A stretch of DNA of 16,563 nucleotides, from assembly GCA_012271065.1 (NCBI GenBank), contig JAAXHE010000344.1, positions 1-16,563 on the forward strand, written 5' to 3'. The position numbers were made by a program, and so were the translations under genes. Source of the DNA: Candidatus Latescibacterota bacterium (GTDB lineage: Bacteria > Latescibacterota > UBA2968 > GCA-2709665). The notes beneath the pieces are model-generated. The model ran no database searches. It saw only the letters and a list, made by a program, of their open reading frames with translations, and had not been told where the DNA came from. Shown here piece by piece: positions 1,475 to 16,316 of this stretch. The stretch's first letter is position 1; each line of letters begins with the position of its first letter.

Positions 1475-3673
1475 TTAATTTTCCAGGCCGAGAATTCCTT
1501 CCAATAGCCCATCTGTTTCCCGCTCCAGCGCTAGAATGTCAGCCCGTATTTCTTCCAGCGTGCGCATCGGCTGCGGTTTGTAGAAATAGCGCGTGAAGCT
1601 GATTTCGTATCCGACCTTGACACTTCCAGGGACGTACCAGACATCCGGCGCATAGGGCAACACTTCTCGGCGCAGGAAGTTTTCGATACCGCCCTCTTCA
1701 AGCAGAGCCACCTGCTCGGTGTCTCTCAGTTCGGTATCGGGTTCGTACTCGACAATGCGACTCCGACCGTTCATTGTGGCTTGGAAGAGACCGCGGATCG
1801 GGTCGGCTTCCACACTTCCTGAACGATGGATCTTCTTTATTACGGGCTCCGCCGTCTCGTCGCGGAATGCTAGGTCAGCTTGAATCAGCTTTTCGCGTCC
1901 GGCGGTCAGCTTCACGCCGCACTCAGGTGCGTAATCTGCGACGACGTCGAGAAACGTGTTGAAGTCTCTGTGAGGCCCATCGCCCATCGCCGCCGCTACA
2001 CAATCGATGACGTCGGCAAGCGGTTCTTCGTTTTCGTCGCTACACGTTGAGCGGAAGCGCTCGCGATGGTCCGCCGACAGATCAACGGAGAGCCGCAAAG
2101 GCCTGTCGACAGTGACTTTCCAGTAACCAAACGCTTCGTTAGGGAAGATCCTCGACTCGTCGCTTTCCTCGAAGCCGAGAAAGGTATCACAGATACGCGT
2201 CAGATCCTCGTCCGACAACTCGCAGTTCTTGTTGCCGAGATTCTTGCGTAGTGGTTTGGACCATTGTGTGGCGTCGATGAGTTGCACCTTGCCGCGCCGA
2301 TGCTTCGGTTTGCGGTTCGTCAACACCCAGATATAAGTGGCAATGCCGGTGTTGTAGAACATGTTCAATGGCAGCGCCACGATAGCTTCGAGCCAGTCGT
2401 TTTCGATAATCCATCGACGGATGTTGCTCTCGCCTTGACCGGCGTCACCAGTGAACAGCGAACTCCCGTTGTGTACCTCGGCGATGCGGCTGCCGAGCGG
2501 CGTGTCCTGCTTCATCTTGCTCAGCATATTGGCCAGGAACATCATCTGTCCGTCTTTGGAACGGGTGATAAGTGAGTATTCCGGATCTCCGTCATGCTCG
2601 ACGATGAATCGGGGATCCCGGATGCCCGACTTCCCGCCCATGCGTTCCTGATCGCCTTTCCAACTCTTACCATAGGGCGGATTGGACAGCATGAAGTCGA
2701 ACTCATTGGCCGGGAAGGCGTCGGCGGCAAGCGTCGATCCATAACGCATGTTGTCGGCCTCTACACCTTCGCCCTTGAGGATCAGGTCGGCTTTGCTGAT
2801 GGCGTAGGTTTCCGGGTTGATCTCCTGGCCATACAGATGAACGGAGACCTCCTTGCCGTGCTCGGCGGCTAGTCGAGTAAGCGTCTCTTCGGCGACCGTA
2901 AGCATCCCGCCGGTGCCGCAGGCGCCGTCGTATACAAGGTAGGTGCCGGATTTGACCTCGTCGGCAACCGGTATGAAAATCAACCGCGCCATGAGCTGTA
3001 CGACGTCACGAGGGGTGAAGTGCTCGCCGGCCTCCTCGTTGTTTTCCTCGTTGAAACGTCGGATCAGTTCCTCGAAAACGGTGCCCATTCCGTGGTTGTC
3101 GAGAGCTTCAAGACGCACGGATCCGTCGGCGTTCAACACGGGTTTGGGGCTGAGGTTGATCGAAGGGTCAAGGAATTTCTCCAAAAGAAACCCAAGCAAG
3201 TCGTTCTCAACCAATTCAGGAATCTGATTCCGAAACTTGAATCTCTCAAGGACCTCCAGCACGTTGGGTGAGAAGCCATCGAGGTAAGCAACAAAGTCGG
3301 CATGTAGCTGCTGCTGTCTGGCGCGGGAGGTCAGATCACGGAGTTTGAACGGTGAGGCGTTGTAAAAGGCCTCGCCGGATGCCTGGCGCAACGCCGCGTC
3401 TTGGTTGGTCACTCCCGCCGCGTCGAGCCGGGCTTTCATCTGGAGCACGGCTTCTTTCGTCGGTTCCAGAACGGAGTCGAGACGACGGATAACCGTCATA
3501 GGCAGGATGACATCCCGGTATTTTCCCCTGCCGAACACATCTCGCAGTACGTCATCAGCAATGCTCCAGATGAAATTGCTGATGTTCAACCTGCCCACAA
3601 CGGCGCCACGGCCTTTCACGGATGGTTTTCGATCTGAACTGTTGTTCGTCGATCCGGTTTCGTCAGAACTCAT
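1475..3673 (-). CDS. hsdM: Type I restriction-modification DNA methyltransferase subunit (HsdM)
   Basis: This 732-residue N6-adenine DNA methyltransferase has an N-terminal helical HsdM_N region (about 30-165). The catalytic domain follows, with the AGEHFTPRDVV segment (215-225), AdoMet-binding motif I as DGACGTGG (249-256) and the catalytic motif IV NPPY (331-334). The C-terminus ends in a coiled-coil-like helix of the kind long HsdM subunits use for contact with HsdS. In the known complex HsdM2-HsdS methylates a bipartite site, and HsdR is added for restriction. The start is ATG at 3673 with a strong GGAG ribosome-binding site 7-9 bases upstream. No specificity or restriction subunit is visible: fic follows and then a convergent transposase. 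An HsdM alone normally lacks sequence specificity, so its partners are either left of the window or lost. Confidence 0.95.
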   Translation of the reverse strand: MSSDETGSTNNSSDRKPSVKGRGAVVGRLNISNFIWSIADDVLRDVFGRGKYRDVILPMTVIRRLDSVLEPTKEAVLQMKARLDAAGVTNQDAALRQASGEAFYNASPFKLRDLTSRARQQQLHADFVAYLDGFSPNVLEVLERFKFRNQIPELVENDLLGFLLEKFLDPSINLSPKPVLNADGSVRLEALDNHGMGTVFEELIRRFNEENNEEAGEHFTPRDVVQLMARLIFIPVADEVKSGTYLVYDGACGTGGMLTVAEETLTRLAAEHGKEVSVHLYGQEINPETYAISKADLILKGEGVEADNMRYGSTLAADAFPANEFDFMLSNPPYGKSWKGDQERMGGKSGIRDPRFIVEHDGDPEYSLITRSKDGQMMFLANMLSKMKQDTPLGSRIAEVHNGSSLFTGDAGQGESNIRRWIIENDWLEAIVALPLNMFYNTGIATYIWVLTNRKPKHRRGKVQLIDATQWSKPLRKNLGNKNCELSDEDLTRICDTFLGFEESDESRIFPNEAFGYWKVTVDRPLRLSVDLSADHRERFRSTCSDENEEPLADVIDCVAAAMGDGPHRDFNTFLDVVADYAPECGVKLTAGREKLIQADLAFRDETAEPVIKKIHRSGSVEADPIRGLFQATMNGRSRIVEYEPDTELRDTEQVALLEEGGIENFLRREVLPYAPDVWYVPGSVKVGYEISFTRYFYKPQPMRTLEEIRADILALERETDGLLEGILGLEN

Positions 3674-5104: not shown

Positions 5105-5133
5105 TTGACGGTCATGGCGTAAGACGTTATCTT
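5105..5133 (+). promoter_or_regulatory. Candidate vapBC promoter placing the start site at the vapB ATG
   Basis: TTGACG (5105-5110) and TATCTT (5128-5133) are separated by 17 bases, a good sigma-70 arrangement. Transcription would begin near 5140-5141, which is the A of the vapB ATG. There is no Shine-Dalgarno sequence before that ATG, so a leaderless mRNA is plausible. A weak inverted repeat (AAGA...TCTT, 5121-5133) overlaps the -10 element and might serve as a VapB-binding site. Confidence 0.45.
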
Positions 5134-5140
5134 GCTTCCT

Positions 5141-5374
5141 ATGAAGACAGTTCTATCAACCAGGGGTCAGATTGTCATTCCGGCCGAGTTTCGACACCAG
5201 GACAAGCTCGAACCGGGCCAGTTGTTTGCAATAGAACGGGTGGACAGAGGCGAATATCGTCTGGTCGTTGCCGACCCCCCGAGGAACCACGGGCTGGTGG
5301 ACACACTTCTCGCTTGTCCTGAAAAAGGCTGGTTCGTGTCGATCGAATCCGAGTCGACCGACTCGCTCGGATGA
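5141..5374 (+). CDS. vapB: AbrB/MazE-type antitoxin (VapB)
   Basis: This 77-residue protein starts with MKTVLSTRGQIVIPAEFR, the typical SpoVT/AbrB swapped-hairpin DNA-binding domain (residues 1-45). A short C-terminal tail of the kind that wraps the toxin follows. In known VapBC modules the antitoxin neutralises the PIN ribonuclease and, with it, represses its own promoter. The ATG at 5141 is preferred over an upstream in-frame TTG at 5132 because the domain begins exactly there. Its TGA overlaps the toxin ATG (ATGA, 5371-5374), giving strict translational coupling. No ribosome-binding site is visible, consistent with a leaderless transcript. Confidence 0.9.
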   Translation: MKTVLSTRGQIVIPAEFRHQDKLEPGQLFAIERVDRGEYRLVVADPPRNHGLVDTLLACPEKGWFVSIESESTDSLG

Positions 5375-5787
5375 TCACCATGACGTTTCTCGTGGACGCC
5401 AATGTATTGTCCGAGGCGACGCAGTCGAGGCCGGATCCGCGCGTGATCGCGTGGCTGGCGCGAAACGAACGCGACCTGGCCGTCGATCCCGTGATCCTGG
5501 GAGTAATTCGCTTTGGTATCCTTCTGCTGCCGCGAGGGCGTCGGCGTCGCGCGCTCGAGCGCTGGTTCGACGACGTCGCCCGTCGCATTCACTGTATCCC
5601 GTGGGATGCCGAGACCGGATTGCGCTGGGCGGAACTGCTGGCGCACCTTCGTCTTGTCGGAAAGCCGATGCCGATCAAGGACAGCCTCATTGCCGCTACC
5701 GCACTGACCCACGGATTGTCTCTGGCGACCCGAAATCGTCGCGACTTCGAAGCCAGCGGCGTCAAACTCGTCGATCCCTTTGCCTGA
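5371..5787 (+). CDS. vapC: PIN-domain toxin (VapC) with a substituted active-site Glu
   Basis: This 138-residue PIN-domain protein of the VapC ribonuclease family shows FLVDANVLSE with the first acidic residue (D9), IKDSLIAATAL with D104, and ATRNRRDF with D125. The second acidic position, normally Glu in a (L/I)GE(I/L)RxG context, reads LGVIRFG, with Val at residue 45 (codon GTA, 5503-5505). A single A-to-T change from GAA would produce this. VapC proteins cleave tRNA or rRNA with a metal-binding acidic cluster, so losing this Glu may weaken or abolish activity. The gene overlaps vapB by ATGA. An alternative start is ATG at 5380 (MTFLVD). Apart from that residue the protein is full length. 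Confidence 0.9.
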   Translation: MITMTFLVDANVLSEATQSRPDPRVIAWLARNERDLAVDPVILGVIRFGILLLPRGRRRRALERWFDDVARRIHCIPWDAETGLRWAELLAHLRLVGKPMPIKDSLIAATALTHGLSLATRNRRDFEASGVKLVDPFA

Positions 5788-6044: not shown

Positions 6045-6305
6045 TCATTCCAGTGGAGCGATTTTACCAGGCGATTCGAGGCGTTGTGCCTTCTGCCACG
6101 CTTGCCGTAACTGAAGCCGGCGCAAGAGTGCCCATTCCGTGACGAGACCCTGTGCGCGCGGCGGCAGGCGCCCACCCAGAACCGACGGTGTTTCTATACT
6201 GATCACTGCCTCGTCCCCACTGTACTCAGCGTGGAAATGTGCGGGTGCGTGGTCGTTGAAATACATTCGAATAACGATTCCGTAAAATCGGCAGAGTTCA
6301 GGCAT
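6045..6305 (-). CDS. DUF4160 family protein
   Basis: This 86-residue protein begins MPELCRFYGIVIRMYFNDHA and continues with PAHFHAEYSGDEAVISIET. That matches the DUF4160 pattern: a short beta-rich N-terminus with the conserved (N/D)DH.PPHFHA-type His cluster. DUF4160 genes are commonly found beside DUF2442 genes, and the pair has the small, overlapping layout of a toxin-antitoxin-like module. I know of no established biochemical activity. ATG at 6303-6305 is preferred; an in-frame TTG lies two codons earlier. It overlaps the end of the DUF2442 gene by 8 bases, so the two are translationally coupled. The perfect hairpin at 5912-5941 lies about 100 bases after its stop. Confidence 0.85.
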   Translation of the reverse strand: MPELCRFYGIVIRMYFNDHAPAHFHAEYSGDEAVISIETPSVLGGRLPPRAQGLVTEWALLRRLQLRQAWQKAQRLESPGKIAPLE

Positions 6306-6582
6306 TTTCAACCGATACCAATGTGTCGGACATCACCTCCACAACCGATTTGCCGCTGAGCTGCAAATACAGGGCATCGGGGCAAAGTTCCAATTCCTCA
6401 CCCCAGGCCACAGCGCCATGATCCTCAATACGCACGGCCTCAAAAAAGGTGCGATCTTCCCAGGCCGTGAATACGCCGCGTCCAGTGAGGTGCTCCAGGT
6501 CTACCTCACCCTCAGTGCCGTCCGAATAGCGCAGCCAGATGTGGTAGCCTTCTCGGGCCTCCACCGCAATTGGTCGCTTCAT
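6298..6582 (-). CDS. DUF2442 family protein
   Basis: This 94-residue protein has the DUF2442 hallmarks: a beta-strand segment YHIWLRYSDGTEGEVDLEHL, then FTAWEDRTFFEAVRIEDHGAVAWG and ELCPDALYL. The family is small and alpha/beta and is often encoded with a DUF4160 partner; its function has not been defined. The ATG at 6582 has a GGAG ribosome-binding site 6-8 bases upstream. It is the first gene of a two-gene operon with the overlapping DUF4160 gene. A role as regulator or antitoxin for its partner is inference from gene order and size only. Confidence 0.85.
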   Translation of the reverse strand: MKRPIAVEAREGYHIWLRYSDGTEGEVDLEHLTGRGVFTAWEDRTFFEAVRIEDHGAVAWGEELELCPDALYLQLSGKSVVEVMSDTLVSVENA

Positions 6583-7902: not shown

Positions 7903-8967
7903 TCAATTTGGATATTCGAACTCCTCGTAATCGTCTTTCCCGATCGGATGCAGGTAAAGCCTCATTTTTCGATCTCTCGTGGTTGCGAACATCACCTGGC
8001 AGGAGATCAGGTCGCCCACGTTCAAACCATGCGTCTGCAGGATGCGCCCGGGCGCATGGACGTCGAACGAGAAATCGATCAGTTCCTGCAGGGTTTTCAT
8101 CCGGGCGAAGACGTTCCGATAGTGCGCGAAATACATGACGCGCGCCTGGGAGTTGTAATAGTAGGGTCCGTCCCAGAATTCGGGGTCGGCCTCGCGCGAC
8201 GGATTCTGAAGCCTGGGATGCTGCCAGTGGTTGACCTCCAGGAGCATCCCGTCCTGCGCTTCAGAGATGGCGACATTCTCAGATTCCAACTCGAGACCCA
8301 GTATATTCCCTGCGGCGTCGACCGTGACCAGGTTCATCCCCTTCTGTCCCGAGAGGCGGTACTGTTCCACGAAATGCCGGACGTCGTCGCAGTCGCCGCA
8401 GTGCTGCGTCAGCAGGTGGACGACGAAGTAGAGGTTCAGGTGTTCGGGATTGGAGGCGAAGTTGAACTTCCGATGACCGGAGTTCGCCCCCACGGCCAGT
8501 CCGGCGTCGTTCACGCCCATCCCGAGTGTGACGTGCCTGCTGGAGCCGAACCCCATCATTCCATGAGGTTTCGTGTCCGGGAAAAACGAGACAACGGAAC
8601 CGGACACCGTTCCGGGCACCGTATCCGTGCCACCGTCGTTGGTGGACAGCATAGCGGGCCCGTCATCATCCAGTACGATTCCCAGCGTGGAGCAGGCATC
8701 CCCCGCGGGCCCGGTCCAGAGAATATGGCCGTAATACGCGTGATCGAAAGACGCCATTCCCGCCGCCTCTCCGAACGCTTCGATCTGCTCGATCATATCC
8801 GGAAACTCACGCCGCATAAATGCCATGTTCTGCCGGAAGTAGGTATTCTCGAAATCGTGCGGTCGGGCCTGCCAGAACTTCAGGTAGTCCTGCGCGGCCT
8901 CAGGGCTTATGGAACCCTGGGCCTTTCCGGTCTCGGCGGGACTGCCGCGAAACGTTCGCGTTTCCAT
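7903..8967 (-). CDS. C45-family acyltransferase/amidohydrolase (6-APA acyltransferase-like, Ntn type), copy 1
   Basis: This 354-residue protein resembles acyl-CoA:6-aminopenicillanic acid acyltransferase (peptidase family C45). These Ntn hydrolases self-cleave before a Cys that becomes the N-terminal nucleophile. The candidate is Cys92 in GDACSTLGI, with the following DDGPAMLSTND segment in the place of the family's substrate-pocket strand. Later conserved parts are GHRKFNFASNPEHLNLYF and LEVNHW. The family makes or breaks amide bonds to acyl chains; the true substrate here is unknown. ATG at 8967 is chosen because GGAGGAG lies 6-9 bases upstream; an in-frame start at 8997 would overlap the CocE stop. 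It follows the CocE gene by 26 bases, so the two are almost certainly co-transcribed. No signal peptide is seen. A close paralogue is at 14215-15282. Confidence 0.85.
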   Translation of the reverse strand: METRTFRGSPAETGKAQGSISPEAAQDYLKFWQARPHDFENTYFRQNMAFMRREFPDMIEQIEAFGEAAGMASFDHAYYGHILWTGPAGDACSTLGIVLDDDGPAMLSTNDGGTDTVPGTVSGSVVSFFPDTKPHGMMGFGSSRHVTLGMGVNDAGLAVGANSGHRKFNFASNPEHLNLYFVVHLLTQHCGDCDDVRHFVEQYRLSGQKGMNLVTVDAAGNILGLELESENVAISEAQDGMLLEVNHWQHPRLQNPSREADPEFWDGPYYYNSQARVMYFAHYRNVFARMKTLQELIDFSFDVHAPGRILQTHGLNVGDLISCQVMFATTRDRKMRLYLHPIGKDDYEEFEYPN

Positions 8968-8993
8968 CGTTGACTCCTCCGCATTGAATGTTG

Positions 8994-10823
8994 TCACGAC
9001 GTCCAGACGGGCAGTTCTATGTATGAGGCTCGTCCGGCCTCGTGGTAGACAGTGTTACGAGCGATTCGCCAGTCTCTGTCGTCGGGATCGCCCGTGTTCC
9101 GGTTAATGTCGAAATTCGGAAAGTTGCTGCTGCAGATGTCCAGGCGGATGCGATGCCCCGCTTTGAACAGGTTCGCCGACGGCTGCATGTCGATTTCGAT
9201 GCGATACACCGTTCCCGGCTCCATGGGACGCGGCCGTTCGAAACTGTCACGATATCGTACCCTGAGGATGCCCTCGGAAACGGGGAAGGCGTACCCGTTA
9301 GGATCGTCCCGGCTCGGCGGATATACGTCCAGTAGCTTGAGGAAGAAATCGGTATCCGGCGCGTCCGAGGATATCCAGAGGCTCCCTCTGATGTTCCCGG
9401 CGATCGACAGGTCGTCCGTCAGCGGCGCGGTCTGAAAGACCAGCACGTCGGGCCGCGAGGCGATGGGCATGCCGGGGATGCCATGCCCGGGAAGGGTCTC
9501 GATCTCGATCTGATCGCGGGGACCCATCCCCTTGAACCACCCCTCCTTCATCGGACCGTAGGGGATGATACAGCGGCCGTTGCTGGATACCGTATTGCGC
9601 GGGTCATACGTGTACGTCGTCGAAGCATCTTCCTCGGACGGGGCATCGGACGACAGGATTCCGTTCTCATGGATATAGTAGTTAATCGAACTCGAACCCT
9701 TCGGCGGCCACCCATCCACGCTGAACCACTTCCCGCCGTGTTGCAGGAGTCCGTCTCTGTCCCGGCTGCCGTCCCCGCCGCCCATCCGGAACATCCGCAC
9801 AGCGCTTCCCACGTCCACCGTGGTATCGTCCTTCAGCCACCGGTTGAACCACTGCAGGTAGAGGTGGAGGAAATCCTTATGGAAATGGAGGCCGCCCTCC
9901 GGCCCGAAGTGCACGTCTCCGCAGGACGGTTCGCAGTTGCCGTGGGTCCAGGGACCCACCAACAGGTGCTGATTCCCGCGCCCCATGCTCACCATCTTCC
10001 GGAAACCGTCGATGATGGTCCTGGGATACCAGTCGAACCAGCCTACCATCCAGAGGATGGGCATGTCGGGAAACGAATCGAAATACTCGTCCATCGCGAA
10101 TCCCGGCTGCCGCCAGAATTCCGTATAGTCGTTGTTCTCGAAATAAAGCTGGAAGACCGCGTCCTCATATTGCGGGACCACCGCCAGCGGCGTCTGACCG
10201 CGCCGCCAGGGGATGCGGGATGCCCATTCGAGAAACTGTGTTCCGTCGGCGGACATCGCCCGTACGGCTTCGGCAATGGCCGGGTCCGCCTGCGCCTCGT
10301 GGCCTGTTATCGACATCCGGACCGCCCAGTTCAGGAGGCCAAGGTGCAGCGCGCCGCCCTCGCGCATGCTGTAGTGGTAGGCATTGATGGGCCCTTCGAA
10401 TGGAATCATCGTCGTAAGAGACGGGGGGTTCCGCGTGGCCGCGTGGAACTGGACCCACGCATCGTAGGAACACCCGTGCATGCCCACCTTCCCGTTGCAC
10501 GAGGGATGATCGGCGATCCACTCGATGGTGTCGTACCCGTCTTCCGGGTCGTCCCTGAAAGGGAAGAACACGCCTTCGGAACCGTAGCGCCCCCTGCAGT
10601 CCTGTACGGCGGCGATGTAGCCGTGACGCGCGAAAAAGCTCGCGATGGCCGAACCGCCGTTCTTGTTGTACGGCGTCCGCTCCAGGGCCGCGGGGAAGGT
10701 CCCGGTACGTCGATTCGCAACTTCGCCCGGGAAATAGAGGTCGGTGGCCAGGCGCACGCCGTCCCGCATCGGGACCATCAGGTCCCTGGCCACAATAACG
10801 TCAGCCGTATGAGGCTCACCCAT
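8994..10823 (-). CDS. CocE/NonD-family hydrolase (S15-type alpha/beta hydrolase)
   Basis: This 609-residue protein has the layout of cocaine-esterase/alpha-amino-acid-ester-hydrolase/X-Pro dipeptidyl-peptidase relatives. An alpha/beta-hydrolase core (about 10-330) is followed by a C-terminal jelly-roll domain with the family's ...YRIEIDMQPSANLFKAGHRI segment. Catalytic residues can be read: Ser119 in GCSYDAW (usually GxSYxG), Asp264 in GWFDW and His294 in GPWTHGN. Tyr52 in RTPYNK is the likely oxyanion residue. The family hydrolyses esters or amides, and some members act on beta-lactam side chains. No signal peptide is visible, so it is probably cytoplasmic. ATG at 10823 has a TAAGGTGA ribosome-binding site 6-8 bases upstream. 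It sits between the propeller gene (112 bases) and the C45 gene (26 bases) on the same strand, so the three likely act on one substrate. Confidence 0.9.
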   Translation of the reverse strand: MGEPHTADVIVARDLMVPMRDGVRLATDLYFPGEVANRRTGTFPAALERTPYNKNGGSAIASFFARHGYIAAVQDCRGRYGSEGVFFPFRDDPEDGYDTIEWIADHPSCNGKVGMHGCSYDAWVQFHAATRNPPSLTTMIPFEGPINAYHYSMREGGALHLGLLNWAVRMSITGHEAQADPAIAEAVRAMSADGTQFLEWASRIPWRRGQTPLAVVPQYEDAVFQLYFENNDYTEFWRQPGFAMDEYFDSFPDMPILWMVGWFDWYPRTIIDGFRKMVSMGRGNQHLLVGPWTHGNCEPSCGDVHFGPEGGLHFHKDFLHLYLQWFNRWLKDDTTVDVGSAVRMFRMGGGDGSRDRDGLLQHGGKWFSVDGWPPKGSSSINYYIHENGILSSDAPSEEDASTTYTYDPRNTVSSNGRCIIPYGPMKEGWFKGMGPRDQIEIETLPGHGIPGMPIASRPDVLVFQTAPLTDDLSIAGNIRGSLWISSDAPDTDFFLKLLDVYPPSRDDPNGYAFPVSEGILRVRYRDSFERPRPMEPGTVYRIEIDMQPSANLFKAGHRIRLDICSSNFPNFDINRNTGDPDDRDWRIARNTVYHEAGRASYIELPVWTS

Positions 10824-12719: not shown

Positions 12720-12804
12720 TTGACAGACGAGTGTTTGTGCGCTATACATGCCGATCCAGATATCTAAGCCATAGTTTGACAACCTCCGGGATTTCCTGTA
12801 TTCT
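12720..12804 (+). promoter_or_regulatory. Two tandem sigma-70 promoters of the AT-rich cassette
   Basis: The first is TTGACA (12720-12725), a 17-base spacer and TATACA (12743-12748). The second is TTGACA (12776-12781), a 17-base spacer and TATTCT (12799-12804). Both have a perfect -35 element and ideal spacing. The first would give a leader of about 70 bases. The second would start near 12811, only about 12 bases before the ATG, with the GGAG of the first gene at its very 5' end. A weak ATTCT...AGAAT repeat overlaps the second -10 element. Confidence 0.65.
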
Positions 12805-12822
12805 TTAAGTTGGAGAATTTCA

Positions 12823-13065
12823 ATGTCGCCCAAAATTAGACTTAATGACGAGGAAGTAGAGTGCAAGAAAGTCATTATTATAGAATCCGTTGAGAGGTTT
12901 AGCCAGATTCGCCTAGATGATGGAACGATATTGAATATAAAGGCCTCTCCACAGGAAGTCTTTCGCGTGGATAATCGGTATGATCGTGCCGGTAATCCCG
13001 TCTATGTGGTAAATAGCAACAACGTAATCACCGTACATAGTAGCCCGTTATCTCAGGAGCGTTGA
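12823..13065 (+). CDS. Hypothetical 80-residue beta-rich protein, first gene of the cassette
   Basis: I do not recognise a named family. The 80 residues alternate short beta-strand-like stretches (ECKKVIIIESV, SQIRLDDGTILNIKA, EVFRVDNRYD, NPVYVVNSNNVITVHS) and have no membrane segment or signal peptide. That suggests a small soluble beta-barrel or sandwich protein. The ATG has GGAG 7 bases upstream and lies directly after two strong promoter candidates, so expression is likely. The codon choice is AT-rich (22 G/C in the 60 bases from 12841), unlike the genes on either side, which suggests transfer. The stop is two bases before the next ATG, and that gene's AGGAG lies inside the end of this one. 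A regulator, antitoxin or small partner role is possible, but nothing in the sequence proves it. Confidence 0.8.
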   Translation: MSPKIRLNDEEVECKKVIIIESVERFSQIRLDDGTILNIKASPQEVFRVDNRYDRAGNPVYVVNSNNVITVHSSPLSQER

Positions 13066-13066
13066 A

Positions 13067-13558
13067 ATGGTCATTGCGCGCATCAGGGCTGGTAACTACC
13101 CCCCCGATGATGTCCCAATCCTCAAATATCAACAGACCGAGGTGGCTTGGAATGATAACATCAGTCTCATTTATTTTGTACACAGCGAGTCTTACGAATT
13201 TGACCCAGGCTTAGATGTTTGTGATACCTCTGATCCTGAAATCGGGCGTCTCCCAGACAGTACTCTGTTTTTACTGTATATGCAGAGTTGGGATGAAGAA
13301 GCGGGCGTTACATCTTCTCCGATTGAAATGGCCGAGTGCGAGTCCTATCGGAAGATAGTCAAAATGGGACGCAGAGCCCTTCCTTTAATCATGGACCAGT
13401 TAGTGGCAAATTTGGAAGATCCCGATCATTGGTTTATGGCGCTATCCGAAATTACTGGCGAAGATCCAGTTCCCGAAAATGACTATGGTAATACGGTAAA
13501 CATGGCTGAGGCGTGGCTTGAGTGGTGGAGGAAGAATAGTGGCGAATACGTGGGCTGA
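13067..13558 (+). CDS. Hypothetical protein with conserved MGRRALPLI...HWFMALSEITGEDPV domain
   Basis: This 163-residue protein has two parts. Residues 1-70 look beta-rich. Residues 90-158 carry a helical segment, KMGRRALPLIMDQL (99-112), and HWFMALSEITGEDPV (121-135), ending in AEAWLEWWRK (148-156). From memory, this C-terminal block recurs in small uncharacterised proteins encoded beside DUF7689-type genes, as here; I could not check that. It resembles a short HEAT-like helical repeat, but no enzyme motif is apparent. The ATG follows the upstream stop by one base and has AGGAG 9 bases before it. Its end overlaps the next gene by 20 bases, so the three genes are translationally coupled. A binding or immunity-type partner of the DUF7689-like protein is inference. 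Confidence 0.82.
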   Translation: MVIARIRAGNYPPDDVPILKYQQTEVAWNDNISLIYFVHSESYEFDPGLDVCDTSDPEIGRLPDSTLFLLYMQSWDEEAGVTSSPIEMAECESYRKIVKMGRRALPLIMDQLVANLEDPDHWFMALSEITGEDPVPENDYGNTVNMAEAWLEWWRKNSGEYVG

Positions 13559-14009
13559 ATACGGCTTGCCATATCTTGACTCTGCGAATCATGCCATAAC
13601 AAGCGACCGAAGTCGAAAATACAATTGCATTGCTTGGACTGCAGGACGGGACGATCAATGGTGGTGGCCCATCTCGCCCGATCAGCCATTCGGTTCGTAT
13701 TATTGGCCCTCTGAAGTTCCTCGGGAGGTGTCCATACAAGCGTTCTTAAGGGCATTTGAAGGATTGGGATACAAAGAATGCAGGAATAGTGAAGTCGAAG
13801 AAGGATTTGAAAAAATCGTGTTGTTCGCTAGGGATGGTCTTAGCGGGCCGCCTGTTCCCACACATGCAGCGCGACAATTGTCCAATGGTCATTGGACAAG
13901 CAAATTGGGACGACGTGAGGATATTGTTCATCGAAATGTCCACGATGTAAGCGGTCCAGCCTATGGCAATCCGGTCAAATTCATGAAACGAAAAATAACA
14001 GAATGCTGA
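13539..14009 (+). CDS. DUF7689-like protein with candidate Cys/His active site
   Basis: This 156-residue protein has the blocks YNCIAWTAG (28-36), a tryptophan run WWW (41-43), LGYKEC, FEKIVLFA, THAARQLSNGHWTSKLG (108-124) and EDIVH (127-131). These match my recollection of the DUF7689 pattern. Cys30 and His109 sit in the strongest motifs, with His131 close by. A Cys-His hydrolase (papain or transglutaminase-like) is a reasonable guess but unproven. GTG at 13539 is chosen because GGAGGAAG ends 5 bases before it; an earlier in-frame TTG at 13518 lacks such a site. The gene overlaps its upstream partner and ends just before an intrinsic terminator. It has no signal peptide, so a cytoplasmic role is likely. 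Confidence 0.82.
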   Translation: MANTWAEYGLPYLDSANHAITSDRSRKYNCIAWTAGRDDQWWWPISPDQPFGSYYWPSEVPREVSIQAFLRAFEGLGYKECRNSEVEEGFEKIVLFARDGLSGPPVPTHAARQLSNGHWTSKLGRREDIVHRNVHDVSGPAYGNPVKFMKRKITEC

Positions 14010-14032
14010 ATAATAGTTCAAATAATCCAATG

Positions 14033-14060
14033 CCCTGGCGACTGGCCGGGGTTCTTTCTT
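14033..14060 (+). terminator. Intrinsic terminator of the three-gene cassette
   Basis: CCCTGGC (14033-14039) pairs with GCCGGGG (14045-14051), with one G-T pair, around a five-base loop. TTCTTTCTT follows. It lies 24 bases after the stop of the DUF7689-like gene and closes the operon. Confidence 0.7.
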
Positions 14061-14214
14061 GCGACGGTTTACTTGTACAATTTGACATACACGCCTGGTA
14101 CACGTGGAGGAATCATTGTGTGTGAAACCCTATCGATTGCAAGACCAGAGCGAACCAAAGTTACGGTTTGAATTATCTTTCACACGCGAAGGGAAGGCAT
14201 AGTAATCACCCGGG

Positions 14215-15282
14215 TCATTCCCCATACGTCATTTGCGTCAAACGGTTCTTCTCCAGCGGATACCGGTGGACGCGCAGCATCCGGTCCCGCGATGTCATAA
14301 AGATCGCGTGGGTGGTGAACCAGCCGCCGATATTGGTTTCAGGGCTCTGAAGAATCCTGCCCGGCGCGTGCAGGTCGAAAGAAAAATCGGTCAGTTCGCT
14401 CACGGTGCGCAATTTTTCGAACGCATCCCGGTGACAGGCCAGGTACTGGACCCGGTTCTGGGAGTTGTAGAACGAGGCGCTCGCCCACCAGTCCGGATCG
14501 GCCTCGCGGGACGGGCGCTGGAGCTCCGGGTCCTGCCAGTGGTTGGTCTCGAGAACCATTCCGTTGTCGGGTTCCCGAAGGGCGATGTTCTCCGATTCCA
14601 GCTCGAAACCCACCATGTCGCCGGCCGCGTCTACGGCCACGCCCGTCAATCCCTTGATGCCCGAGATCCGATATTGCCGGAGGAAATGCCTGACGTCGCC
14701 GCAATTGGCGCAGTATTGCGCGAGAAGATGCGTGGTGAAATAGAGATTGACGTGTTCGGGGTTGGCGCCCGGGTTGAACTTCCGGTGTCCCGACGCGCAG
14801 CCCACCAGCAGCCCCGCGTCGTTGATCGCCGTGCCGACGGTGACGCCGAACCGCTCGCCGATGCCGATCAGCCCGTGCGGCCTGGCGTCCGGCAACCCCA
14901 TCAGGATCTTGTCGTTCACAAAATCCTCGACCCTGCCGATCGAACTCGTATCGTACGTCCTCAACATCGCCGGACCGTCGTCCTTCAGCATGATCCCGAG
15001 CGCCGAACATCCGTCCAGGTCGGCGTCGGTGAAGTAGACGTGTAGCAGAAACGTATGGTCGAAGTCTTCGATCCCCGCCGCTTCGCCGTATGCCTCCATC
15101 TGCGTCACCGGTTCCGGGAATTCCCGCCGCATGAAAGCCATGTTCTCACGGAAGTAGCGATCCGTGAAATCCTGGCGCAGTTCCAACCGCTTGTCCAGCT
15201 CACGCCGGGCGTATTCGGGATCGAGCGCGCCCTGCGCCCGTCCCGCTTCGGCAGAATCTCCCGCAAAGAAGTACTTTTCCAC
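14215..15282 (-). CDS. C45-family acyltransferase/amidohydrolase (Ntn type), copy 2
   Basis: This 355-residue protein is a clear paralogue of the C45 protein at 7903-8967. YFRENMAFMRREFP and GEAAG near residues 43-70 and FELESEN...NHWQ later on are nearly the same. The candidate self-processing nucleophile is again Cys92, here in LDGCSALGI, followed by DDGPAMLRTYD. The differences after the nucleophile (RTYD instead of STND) point to a different acyl or amine substrate. The start is GTG at 15282 with GAGAGG about 12 bases upstream, a rather long spacing. No signal peptide is seen. It lies in the same orientation as the propeller-CocE-C45 cluster and is separated from it only by the AT-rich plus-strand cassette. 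No terminator was recognised in the 205-base gap after its stop, though GTGTGAAA (14120-14127) and TTTCACAC (14178-14185) could pair at a distance. Confidence 0.85.
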   Translation of the reverse strand: MEKYFFAGDSAEAGRAQGALDPEYARRELDKRLELRQDFTDRYFRENMAFMRREFPEPVTQMEAYGEAAGIEDFDHTFLLHVYFTDADLDGCSALGIMLKDDGPAMLRTYDTSSIGRVEDFVNDKILMGLPDARPHGLIGIGERFGVTVGTAINDAGLLVGCASGHRKFNPGANPEHVNLYFTTHLLAQYCANCGDVRHFLRQYRISGIKGLTGVAVDAAGDMVGFELESENIALREPDNGMVLETNHWQDPELQRPSREADPDWWASASFYNSQNRVQYLACHRDAFEKLRTVSELTDFSFDLHAPGRILQSPETNIGGWFTTHAIFMTSRDRMLRVHRYPLEKNRLTQMTYGE

Positions 15283-15387: not shown

Positions 15388-15645
15388 ATGGGTAACGACA
15401 GTGTGGTACGCGCGCGAATCGACAGCGATACCAAGGCCCGGGCTACCGAGGCGCTTGAAGCCATGGGGCTTTCCGTTTCCGATGCGATCCGCATGCTGTT
15501 ACTGATGATAGCCGAAGAGAAACGGCTGCCATTCGCTGTGAAAGTCCCTAATTCCACGACTGTTGCAGCGATGAAGGAACTGGAAGAGGGAAAGGGCAAA
15601 CGATTCAGCAGCGCCGATGAACTGTTCCGGGATCTTGGCATCTGA
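15388..15645 (+). CDS. dinJ: RelB/DinJ-type antitoxin
   Basis: This 85-residue protein has the N-terminal ribbon-helix-helix typical of RelB/DinJ. VVRARIDSDTKARATEALEA is followed by MGLSVSDAIRMLL and the LPFAVKVPN segment that begins the toxin-wrapping tail. Known DinJ proteins dimerise, bind operator palindromes and hold YafQ inactive. The ATG has GGAGG 7 bases upstream. The toxin ATG begins one base after its TGA. The two palindromes over its promoter give direct sequence support for autoregulation. Confidence 0.92.
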   Translation: MGNDSVVRARIDSDTKARATEALEAMGLSVSDAIRMLLLMIAEEKRLPFAVKVPNSTTVAAMKELEEGKGKRFSSADELFRDLGI

Positions 15646-15646
15646 C

Positions 15647-15919
15647 ATGCTTGCTACTGTTCGTTCGACTCAGTTCCGGCGTGACGTAAAACGAGCAGAG
15701 GCAAGAGGGAAGAATCTCGGTAAACTGAGAGAGATCCTGGCGTTGTTGATCCGGGAGACGCCATTGCCGGGTCGCTATCGCGACCACCGACTTCGGGGGA
15801 GCTGGCAGAGGCACCGGGAAGCCCACATCGAACCGGACTGGCTTTTAATCTACCGAATCGATGGGGATCGGTTGCACCTGGTCCGTACCGGCTCCCATTC
15901 CGACCTGTTCAGGGAGTAA
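15647..15919 (+). CDS. yafQ: YafQ-family toxin (RelE superfamily mRNA interferase)
   Basis: This 90-residue protein aligns by eye with YafQ: YRDHRLRGSW, HREAHIEPDWLLIY and RTGSHSDLF. The catalytic set can be matched at a constant offset of three: H47, H60, D64-W65, H84 and F88 correspond to E. coli H50, H63, D67-W68, H87 and F91. All are present, so the toxin should be an active ribosome-dependent mRNA endonuclease. ATG at 15647 is one base after the antitoxin stop; the frame extends further back, but those residues overlap dinJ and are not conserved-looking. The gene is convergent with the mntA-like gene, and no clear terminator was found between them. Confidence 0.92.
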   Translation: MLATVRSTQFRRDVKRAEARGKNLGKLREILALLIRETPLPGRYRDHRLRGSWQRHREAHIEPDWLLIYRIDGDRLHLVRTGSHSDLFRE

Positions 15920-16010: not shown

Positions 16011-16316
16011 TCAGGCCGCATAAATCACCTCTTTGGTGCTCAGAATTCCCTTCCGACGGAAAGGATTTCGGAGCCCCTGCTCTTCTATGAGGTCAACGGG
16101 CCGTTCGAGGATTTCCGTCAATTCTTCCTGCATCTGAACCAGGTCGAGTAAACTGTGTCCGGCGCCCGGAGTGAACGTAACCAAAAGGTCGACGTCGCTG
16201 TCTTCTGCAAAGTCACCGCGAAGCACAGAGCCGAACGCAGCCAATTCAGTAATCTTCCAGCGACAACAGAAATCATCAATCCGGGCTTGCGGCAAATCTA
16301 TCCGGAGCGGCGCCAT
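16011..16316 (-). CDS. mntA: MNT-type nucleotidyltransferase (MntA-like antitoxin), no HEPN partner visible
   Basis: This 101-residue minimal nucleotidyltransferase contains AFGSVLRGDF (28-36), giving GSxxRG, and SDVDLLV (40-46) with the metal-binding Asp pair D41 and D43. D75 in VDLIEE is a candidate third acid. The ending RNPFRRKGIL...EVIYAA is typical of MntA-like proteins encoded upstream of HepT (HEPN, DUF86) genes. In the characterised system MntA adds AMP to HepT and so blocks the RNase. Here the bases after its stop (15920-16010) hold no HEPN gene, and the next gene is yafQ on the other strand. It is therefore an orphan at this locus. ATG at 16316 has GAGG 5 bases upstream. Confidence 0.88.
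   Translation of the reverse strand: MAPLRIDLPQARIDDFCCRWKITELAAFGSVLRGDFAEDSDVDLLVTFTPGAGHSLLDLVQMQEELTEILERPVDLIEEQGLRNPFRRKGILSTKEVIYAA

Follow-up and report, generated by a model that had tools for sequence, protein, structure and literature searches.

A DUF7689 gene and its conserved upstream partner form a probable toxin-antitoxin operon with an exchangeable first gene

Results

A compact three-gene cassette in a Latescibacterota contig

We analysed a 16,563-nucleotide stretch of contig JAAXHE010000344.1 from a Candidatus Latescibacterota bacterium (hereafter the window), in which three plus-strand genes, named g1, g2 and g3, form a compact cassette. An original prediction had described three tightly coupled genes with two tandem promoters and a terminator, AT-rich in GC-rich surroundings. 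The coordinates agree with the tight coupling: g1 and g2 are 1 base apart, and g2 and g3 overlap by 20 bases. The features of the cassette are as follows.

12720..12748, plus strand: candidate promoter 1 (TTGACA, 17 nt, TATACA), read directly in the sequence and absent from the promoter scan list
12776..12804, plus strand: candidate promoter 2 (TTGACA, 17 nt, TATTCT; 10 of 12), listed by the promoter scan
12823..13065, plus strand: g1, 80 aa, ATG start, putative exchangeable third component
13067..13558, plus strand: g2, 163 aa, ATG start, predicted antitoxin
13539..14009, plus strand: g3, 156 aa, GTG start, DUF7689, predicted papain-like cysteine toxin
14032..14062, plus strand: terminator-like hairpin (14032-14052) with a T-rich tail, from the terminator scan

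A purine-rich, ribosome-binding-like stretch lies ahead of each start. A longer g3 frame of 163 aa could begin at a TTG at 13518; the GTG start fits relatives that are 156 aa long. The G+C content of the cassette is 46.6%, compared with 64.6% and 61.3% in the flanking genes, as had been predicted. The terminator also held up; the scan gave 6 terminator-like sites where 2.0 were expected. The two promoters stood only in part: both TTGACA boxes are present and plausible, but the scan lists the second alone, and 3 promoter-like sites against 2.9 expected in shuffled sequences is not above chance.

g3 is a DUF7689 protein with predicted papain-like features

The third product had been called DUF7689-like, and a Pfam search placed it firmly in DUF7689 (PF24738; E 3.2e-39, 134.7 bits against a gathering score of 22.6). 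All other matches of g3 in Pfam, NCBIfam and PADLOC were at chance level. DUF7689 is a family without assigned function, as is TIGR04255 (NCBIfam), which recurs below, and no paper on either name was found in the open-access literature searched.

Alignment of 113 g3 sequences showed that Cys30 is kept in 112 and His109 in all 113, and candidates for a third polar residue are Ser121 (112/113), Lys122 (113/113) and His131 (111/113). In the structural model, Cys30 is predicted to open a helix (30-34) and His109 to lie within a strand (106-113), which is a feature of papain-like/NlpC-P60 cysteine peptidases, a cysteine at a helix start and a histidine in a strand. The model has papain-like structural neighbours; the top one is 9l5u, a papain-like toxin/immunity pair, and NlpC/P60 structures are frequent among them. 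None of 121 g3 proteins passed an author-set threshold for a hydrophobic N-terminus, a measure that is not a signal-peptide predictor.

g2 and g3 are strictly linked

A genome scan recovered 343 DUF7689 relatives among pattern matches, of which the 80 best loci, spread over many phyla, were kept. In 79 of these 80, g2 lies directly upstream of g3 on the same strand; it is missing only in L041, which begins at a contig end. On viral contigs g2 adjoins g3 in 16/16 loci. These counts bear out the original expectation that the families of g2 and g3 occur side by side. Wherever both were found in non-redundant loci they are co-directional (121/121), so that the pair has the type II layout of adjacent co-directional genes with the predicted antitoxin first. 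All three families occur together in 10 of the 80 loci; elsewhere the first slot holds different genes, which qualifies the original prediction.

The two genes also co-occur at the level of genomes. Among 194 genomes of the cyanobacterial phylum (search centre G010), g2 was present in 12 and g3 in 11, all within the 12 (hypergeometric p = 4e-17), and the genome with g2 only (G115) holds a 27-residue remnant. Among 199 genomes of Planctomycetota (the phylum of G002), 6 carried g2 and 8 carried g3, with all 6 shared (p = 3.5e-10). One of the two g3-only genomes has a divergent g2 (E 0.0015) beside g3, and the other has a broken g3 frame without g2. An extra copy in G002 (L153:817-2259) consists of one YCII-DUF7689 frame that continues in frame into a stretch that is g2-like by eye, possibly a fused toxin-antitoxin. 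Distribution of the pair is patchy, with 8/247, 3/249 and 1/151 genomes in three other phyla and 21/80 in one cyanobacterial order, and these prevalence counts are inflated because the search centres are genomes already carrying the pair and were themselves counted; in Chloroflexota the sole match is the centre genome itself.

Collapsing near-identical g2 sequences gave 129 non-redundant loci; P0048 and P0050 were dropped from A1. A g3 tree was built from 113 intact g3, and 73 of the 129 loci bear a label (third gene, fusion or other). At nine loci (for example L038:812-5470) we also observed a loose cluster of large neighbour proteins, CHAT-like by eye, for which common repeat domains may be the sole link.

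g3 is lost from beside g2

Decay of the pair was counted at 65 non-redundant loci found with g2, with 'intact' defined by author-set thresholds of profile coverage (78/88 and 110/135 positions). L115, which has no g2 frame of at least 30 aa, was left out. At the 62 loci inside contigs, both genes were intact in 48, g2 was intact with g3 broken or gone in 10, both were broken in 4, and none had an intact g3 with a broken g2, counts in which false frameshifts are possible since the assemblies are drafts. Of the three loci at contig edges, one has an intact g3 and a g2 cut by the edge. Because the decay loci were found with g2, the set found with g3 (L001-L080) is a fair complement. It holds 65 non-redundant loci with g2, which is full length in 63 and cut by contig starts in the other two (L038, L076); at two further loci (L048, L058) g3 is split in two frames. 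The two sets of counts therefore indicate that g3 is lost from beside g2 and not the reverse.

A natural deletion bears on the parts of g2. In P0002 (136 aa), residues 1-22 of g1 (17 identical) run into g2 from residue 50, and therefore the body of g1 and the N-terminus of g2 were lost together, with the C-terminal domain of g2 kept. The g3 relative P0004 is complete, and the contigs listed for P0002 and P0004 are both 2,380,734 bases long.

The N-terminal part of g2 is swapped among relatives

g2 comprises a variable N-terminal part (about residues 1-60) and a conserved helical domain (about 61-161), and neither g1 nor g2 matched any family in Pfam, NCBIfam or PADLOC. Relatives of g2 carry fused modules above Pfam cut-offs: SocA_Panacea (1.8e-23), AbrB-like (1.5e-32), DUF433 (2.6e-22), HU (1.6e-18) and Sigma70_r2 (1.2e-10). 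A Phd/YefM match below cut-off was present in 4 of 81 g2 members (best 1.5e-4). A DNA-binding or known antitoxin module on the antitoxin is a mark of type II systems, and the five over-cut-off fusions provide it among g2 relatives; the window's own g2 showed no such module in the Pfam search. By eye, the N-termini of some g2 proteins resemble signal sequences. On a viral contig (L164:5115-5993) a sigma-70 region 2 domain is followed by the g2 domain in one fused protein. At L065:4955-5992 and L067, g2 relatives are extended at the N-terminus by about 250 residues, for which Pfam gave no match and which appear nuclease-like by eye only.

The first slot is exchangeable

The g1 profile gave no significant sequence match in the PDB. 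In 14 of the 129 non-redundant loci, the window included, g1 heads the g2-g3 pair, and these loci form nearly one group on the g3 tree (2 changes). A TIGR04255-type gene stands directly upstream of g2 in 28/129, overlapping or abutting the g2 frame (for example L051:2523-3269), a call that rests on two scanned representatives (3.3e-43 and 1.6e-36), with a weak match at L124; such a gene was found in 0/20 control stretches. In 6 of 129 the slot is filled by c3, an unnamed family with proteins of about 125 aa.

Relatives of g1 also occur with other partners. At 5 of the 13 g1 loci examined (L219-L231), g1 adjoins g2 and g3, and at 5 others no partner stands out (L222, L228-L231). At L227 the g1 relative precedes a HicB-like/HicA pair (HicA 1.3e-9; UPF0150 5.1e-6, just below cut-off). 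At L221 and L223 the gene that follows is unknown, and after it come, respectively, a ParE-like toxin gene (2.9e-9) and a gene for a HEPN-like protein (0.0098, below cut-off). In the HicB-like protein of L227, the UPF0150 domain is preceded by about 90 residues.

A third gene was present in none of 16 loci with a recognised fused module versus 46 of 101 others (Fisher 1.9e-4), after 12 of the 129 loci with partial or contig-cut g2 were left out; p-values here are indicative only, given that the loci share ancestry and that 11 of the 16 fusions were called by eye or below threshold. The N-terminal extension of g2 has a median of 58 residues with a third gene versus 29 with neither, and it is also more hydrophobic with a third gene.

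Neighbouring genes in the window

Other toxin-antitoxin-type genes share the window, and the surroundings of the cassette are not purely metabolic. The genes concerned are listed below.

134-1324: Fic
1475-3673: HsdM
5132-5787: MazE-like (below cut-off)/PIN, toxin-antitoxin type
6045-6582: DUF2442/DUF4160, toxin-antitoxin type
15388-15919: RelB/YafQ, toxin-antitoxin type
16011-16316: nucleotidyltransferase, toxin-antitoxin type

Two genes of the AAT acyltransferase family flank the cassette region (7903-8997 and 14215-15282), and a peptidase S15 gene adjoins the first of them.

Discussion

We read the cassette as a probable type II-like toxin-antitoxin operon whose toxin is papain-like. Gene order, linkage, conservation of active-site-like residues, swapping of modules and the pattern of decay are shown by the data, and toxicity, neutralisation, enzyme activity, the target and the role of g1 are inferred from them. 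The g1 relatives ahead of HicA and ParE-like toxin genes, and the other toxin-antitoxin-type genes of the window, also speak for this reading. The original prediction had left open a toxin/immunity, defence or protein modification module, and the evidence favours an intracellular toxin-antitoxin pair. The toxin would be g3, a cytoplasmic papain-like thiol enzyme using Cys30, His109 and either Ser121 or His131 as third polar residue, which would act on a cell protein by cleavage or another modification. The antitoxin would be g2, whose C-terminal helical domain is predicted to bind and block g3 and whose variable N-terminal part may carry regulation, with a DNA-binding or sensor module in some relatives. 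In the window's lineage g1 would serve this part, an uncharacterised stretch of about 60 residues. As an exchangeable third component, replaced by a TIGR04255-type protein in other lineages, g1 would most likely control expression, folding or stability of the antitoxin; that it is a chaperone is a guess by analogy.

Known systems offer partial likenesses. The Panacea/NetFlax network of type II toxin-antitoxin systems (PMC10440598) similarly has a small two-gene core with the antitoxin first, a patchy distribution, and a dedicated neutralising element to which interchangeable antitoxin domains, Panacea among them, are joined linearly. Our cassette differs in that its toxin is predicted to be papain-like and no known fold matches the predicted neutralising domain of g2; 'papain' and 'cysteine' do not occur in the main text of that paper. 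In toxin-antitoxin-chaperone (TAC) modules, antitoxins of several families bear an added segment that is served by a chaperone (PMC5105189). Our cassette resembles these in having a third gene that may serve several unrelated antitoxin families and is paired with an extra antitoxin segment, but its segment lies at the N-terminus and its third gene stands at the head of the operon, and a SecB-like or chaperone nature would be conjectural for g1, TIGR04255 or c3. Judged from the open-access literature, the g2-g3 pair seems undescribed, and a description elsewhere is possible.

Three other explanations were weighed. g3 could be a benign regulatory cysteine protease (or amidase/deamidase), with g2 as the adaptor that brings it to DNA-bound or sigma-associated substrates and the swapped domains as targeting modules. 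Strict linkage suits an enzyme and its adaptor, and the HU and sigma-70 region 2 fusions suit targeting as well as regulation. However, g3 is lost with g2 kept and never the reverse, Panacea, DUF433 and Phd-like domains are known as antitoxin modules, and g1 is common to HicBA- and ParE-type pairs, and we regard this explanation as improbable.

Secreted systems with papain-like toxins are well documented (PMC3482391, PMC12136450), and the papain-like toxin/immunity pair at the top of the structural neighbours of g3 would fit an effector delivered into rival cells with g2 as its immunity protein, like Cpe1/Cpi1. According to PMC12136450, Cpe1 is delivered by the type VI secretion system (T6SS) or contact-dependent inhibition (CDI), with the immunity gene placed after that of the toxin. 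In our pair the partner gene comes first and has relatives with DNA-binding modules, no g3 passed the N-terminal threshold, and no secretion, trafficking or other delivery gene was recognised by eye among the 25 recurrent clusters of neighbours listed for 81 loci, for which no profile search was made. Such an effector is highly improbable. Hardly credible to us is an envelope enzyme, in which an exported g2 would control g3, and g3 would hydrolyse peptidoglycan as an NlpC/P60-like enzyme; the many NlpC/P60 neighbours and the signal-like g2 N-termini speak for it, but the same threshold result for g3 and the DNA-binding fusions of g2, which are cytoplasmic, argue against it.

The toxin-antitoxin operon could also be part of something broader, although we hold this extension to be doubtful: a new three-part class with an intracellular papain-like protease toxin, an antitoxin combining a new neutralising fold with swappable heads that act as sensors or bind DNA, and a position that different third proteins (g1, TIGR04255, c3) can occupy. 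These third proteins would use the N-terminal segment of the antitoxin to 'addict' it, in the manner of the SecB-like chaperones of TAC modules, and g1 would be a portable partner also serving HicBA-, ParE- and HEPN-type systems.

If the toxin-antitoxin reading is true, DUF7689 and its unnamed partner g2 would gain a function, a protease-type toxin would join the intracellular toxin-antitoxin repertoire, and g1 and TIGR04255 would be portable third components.
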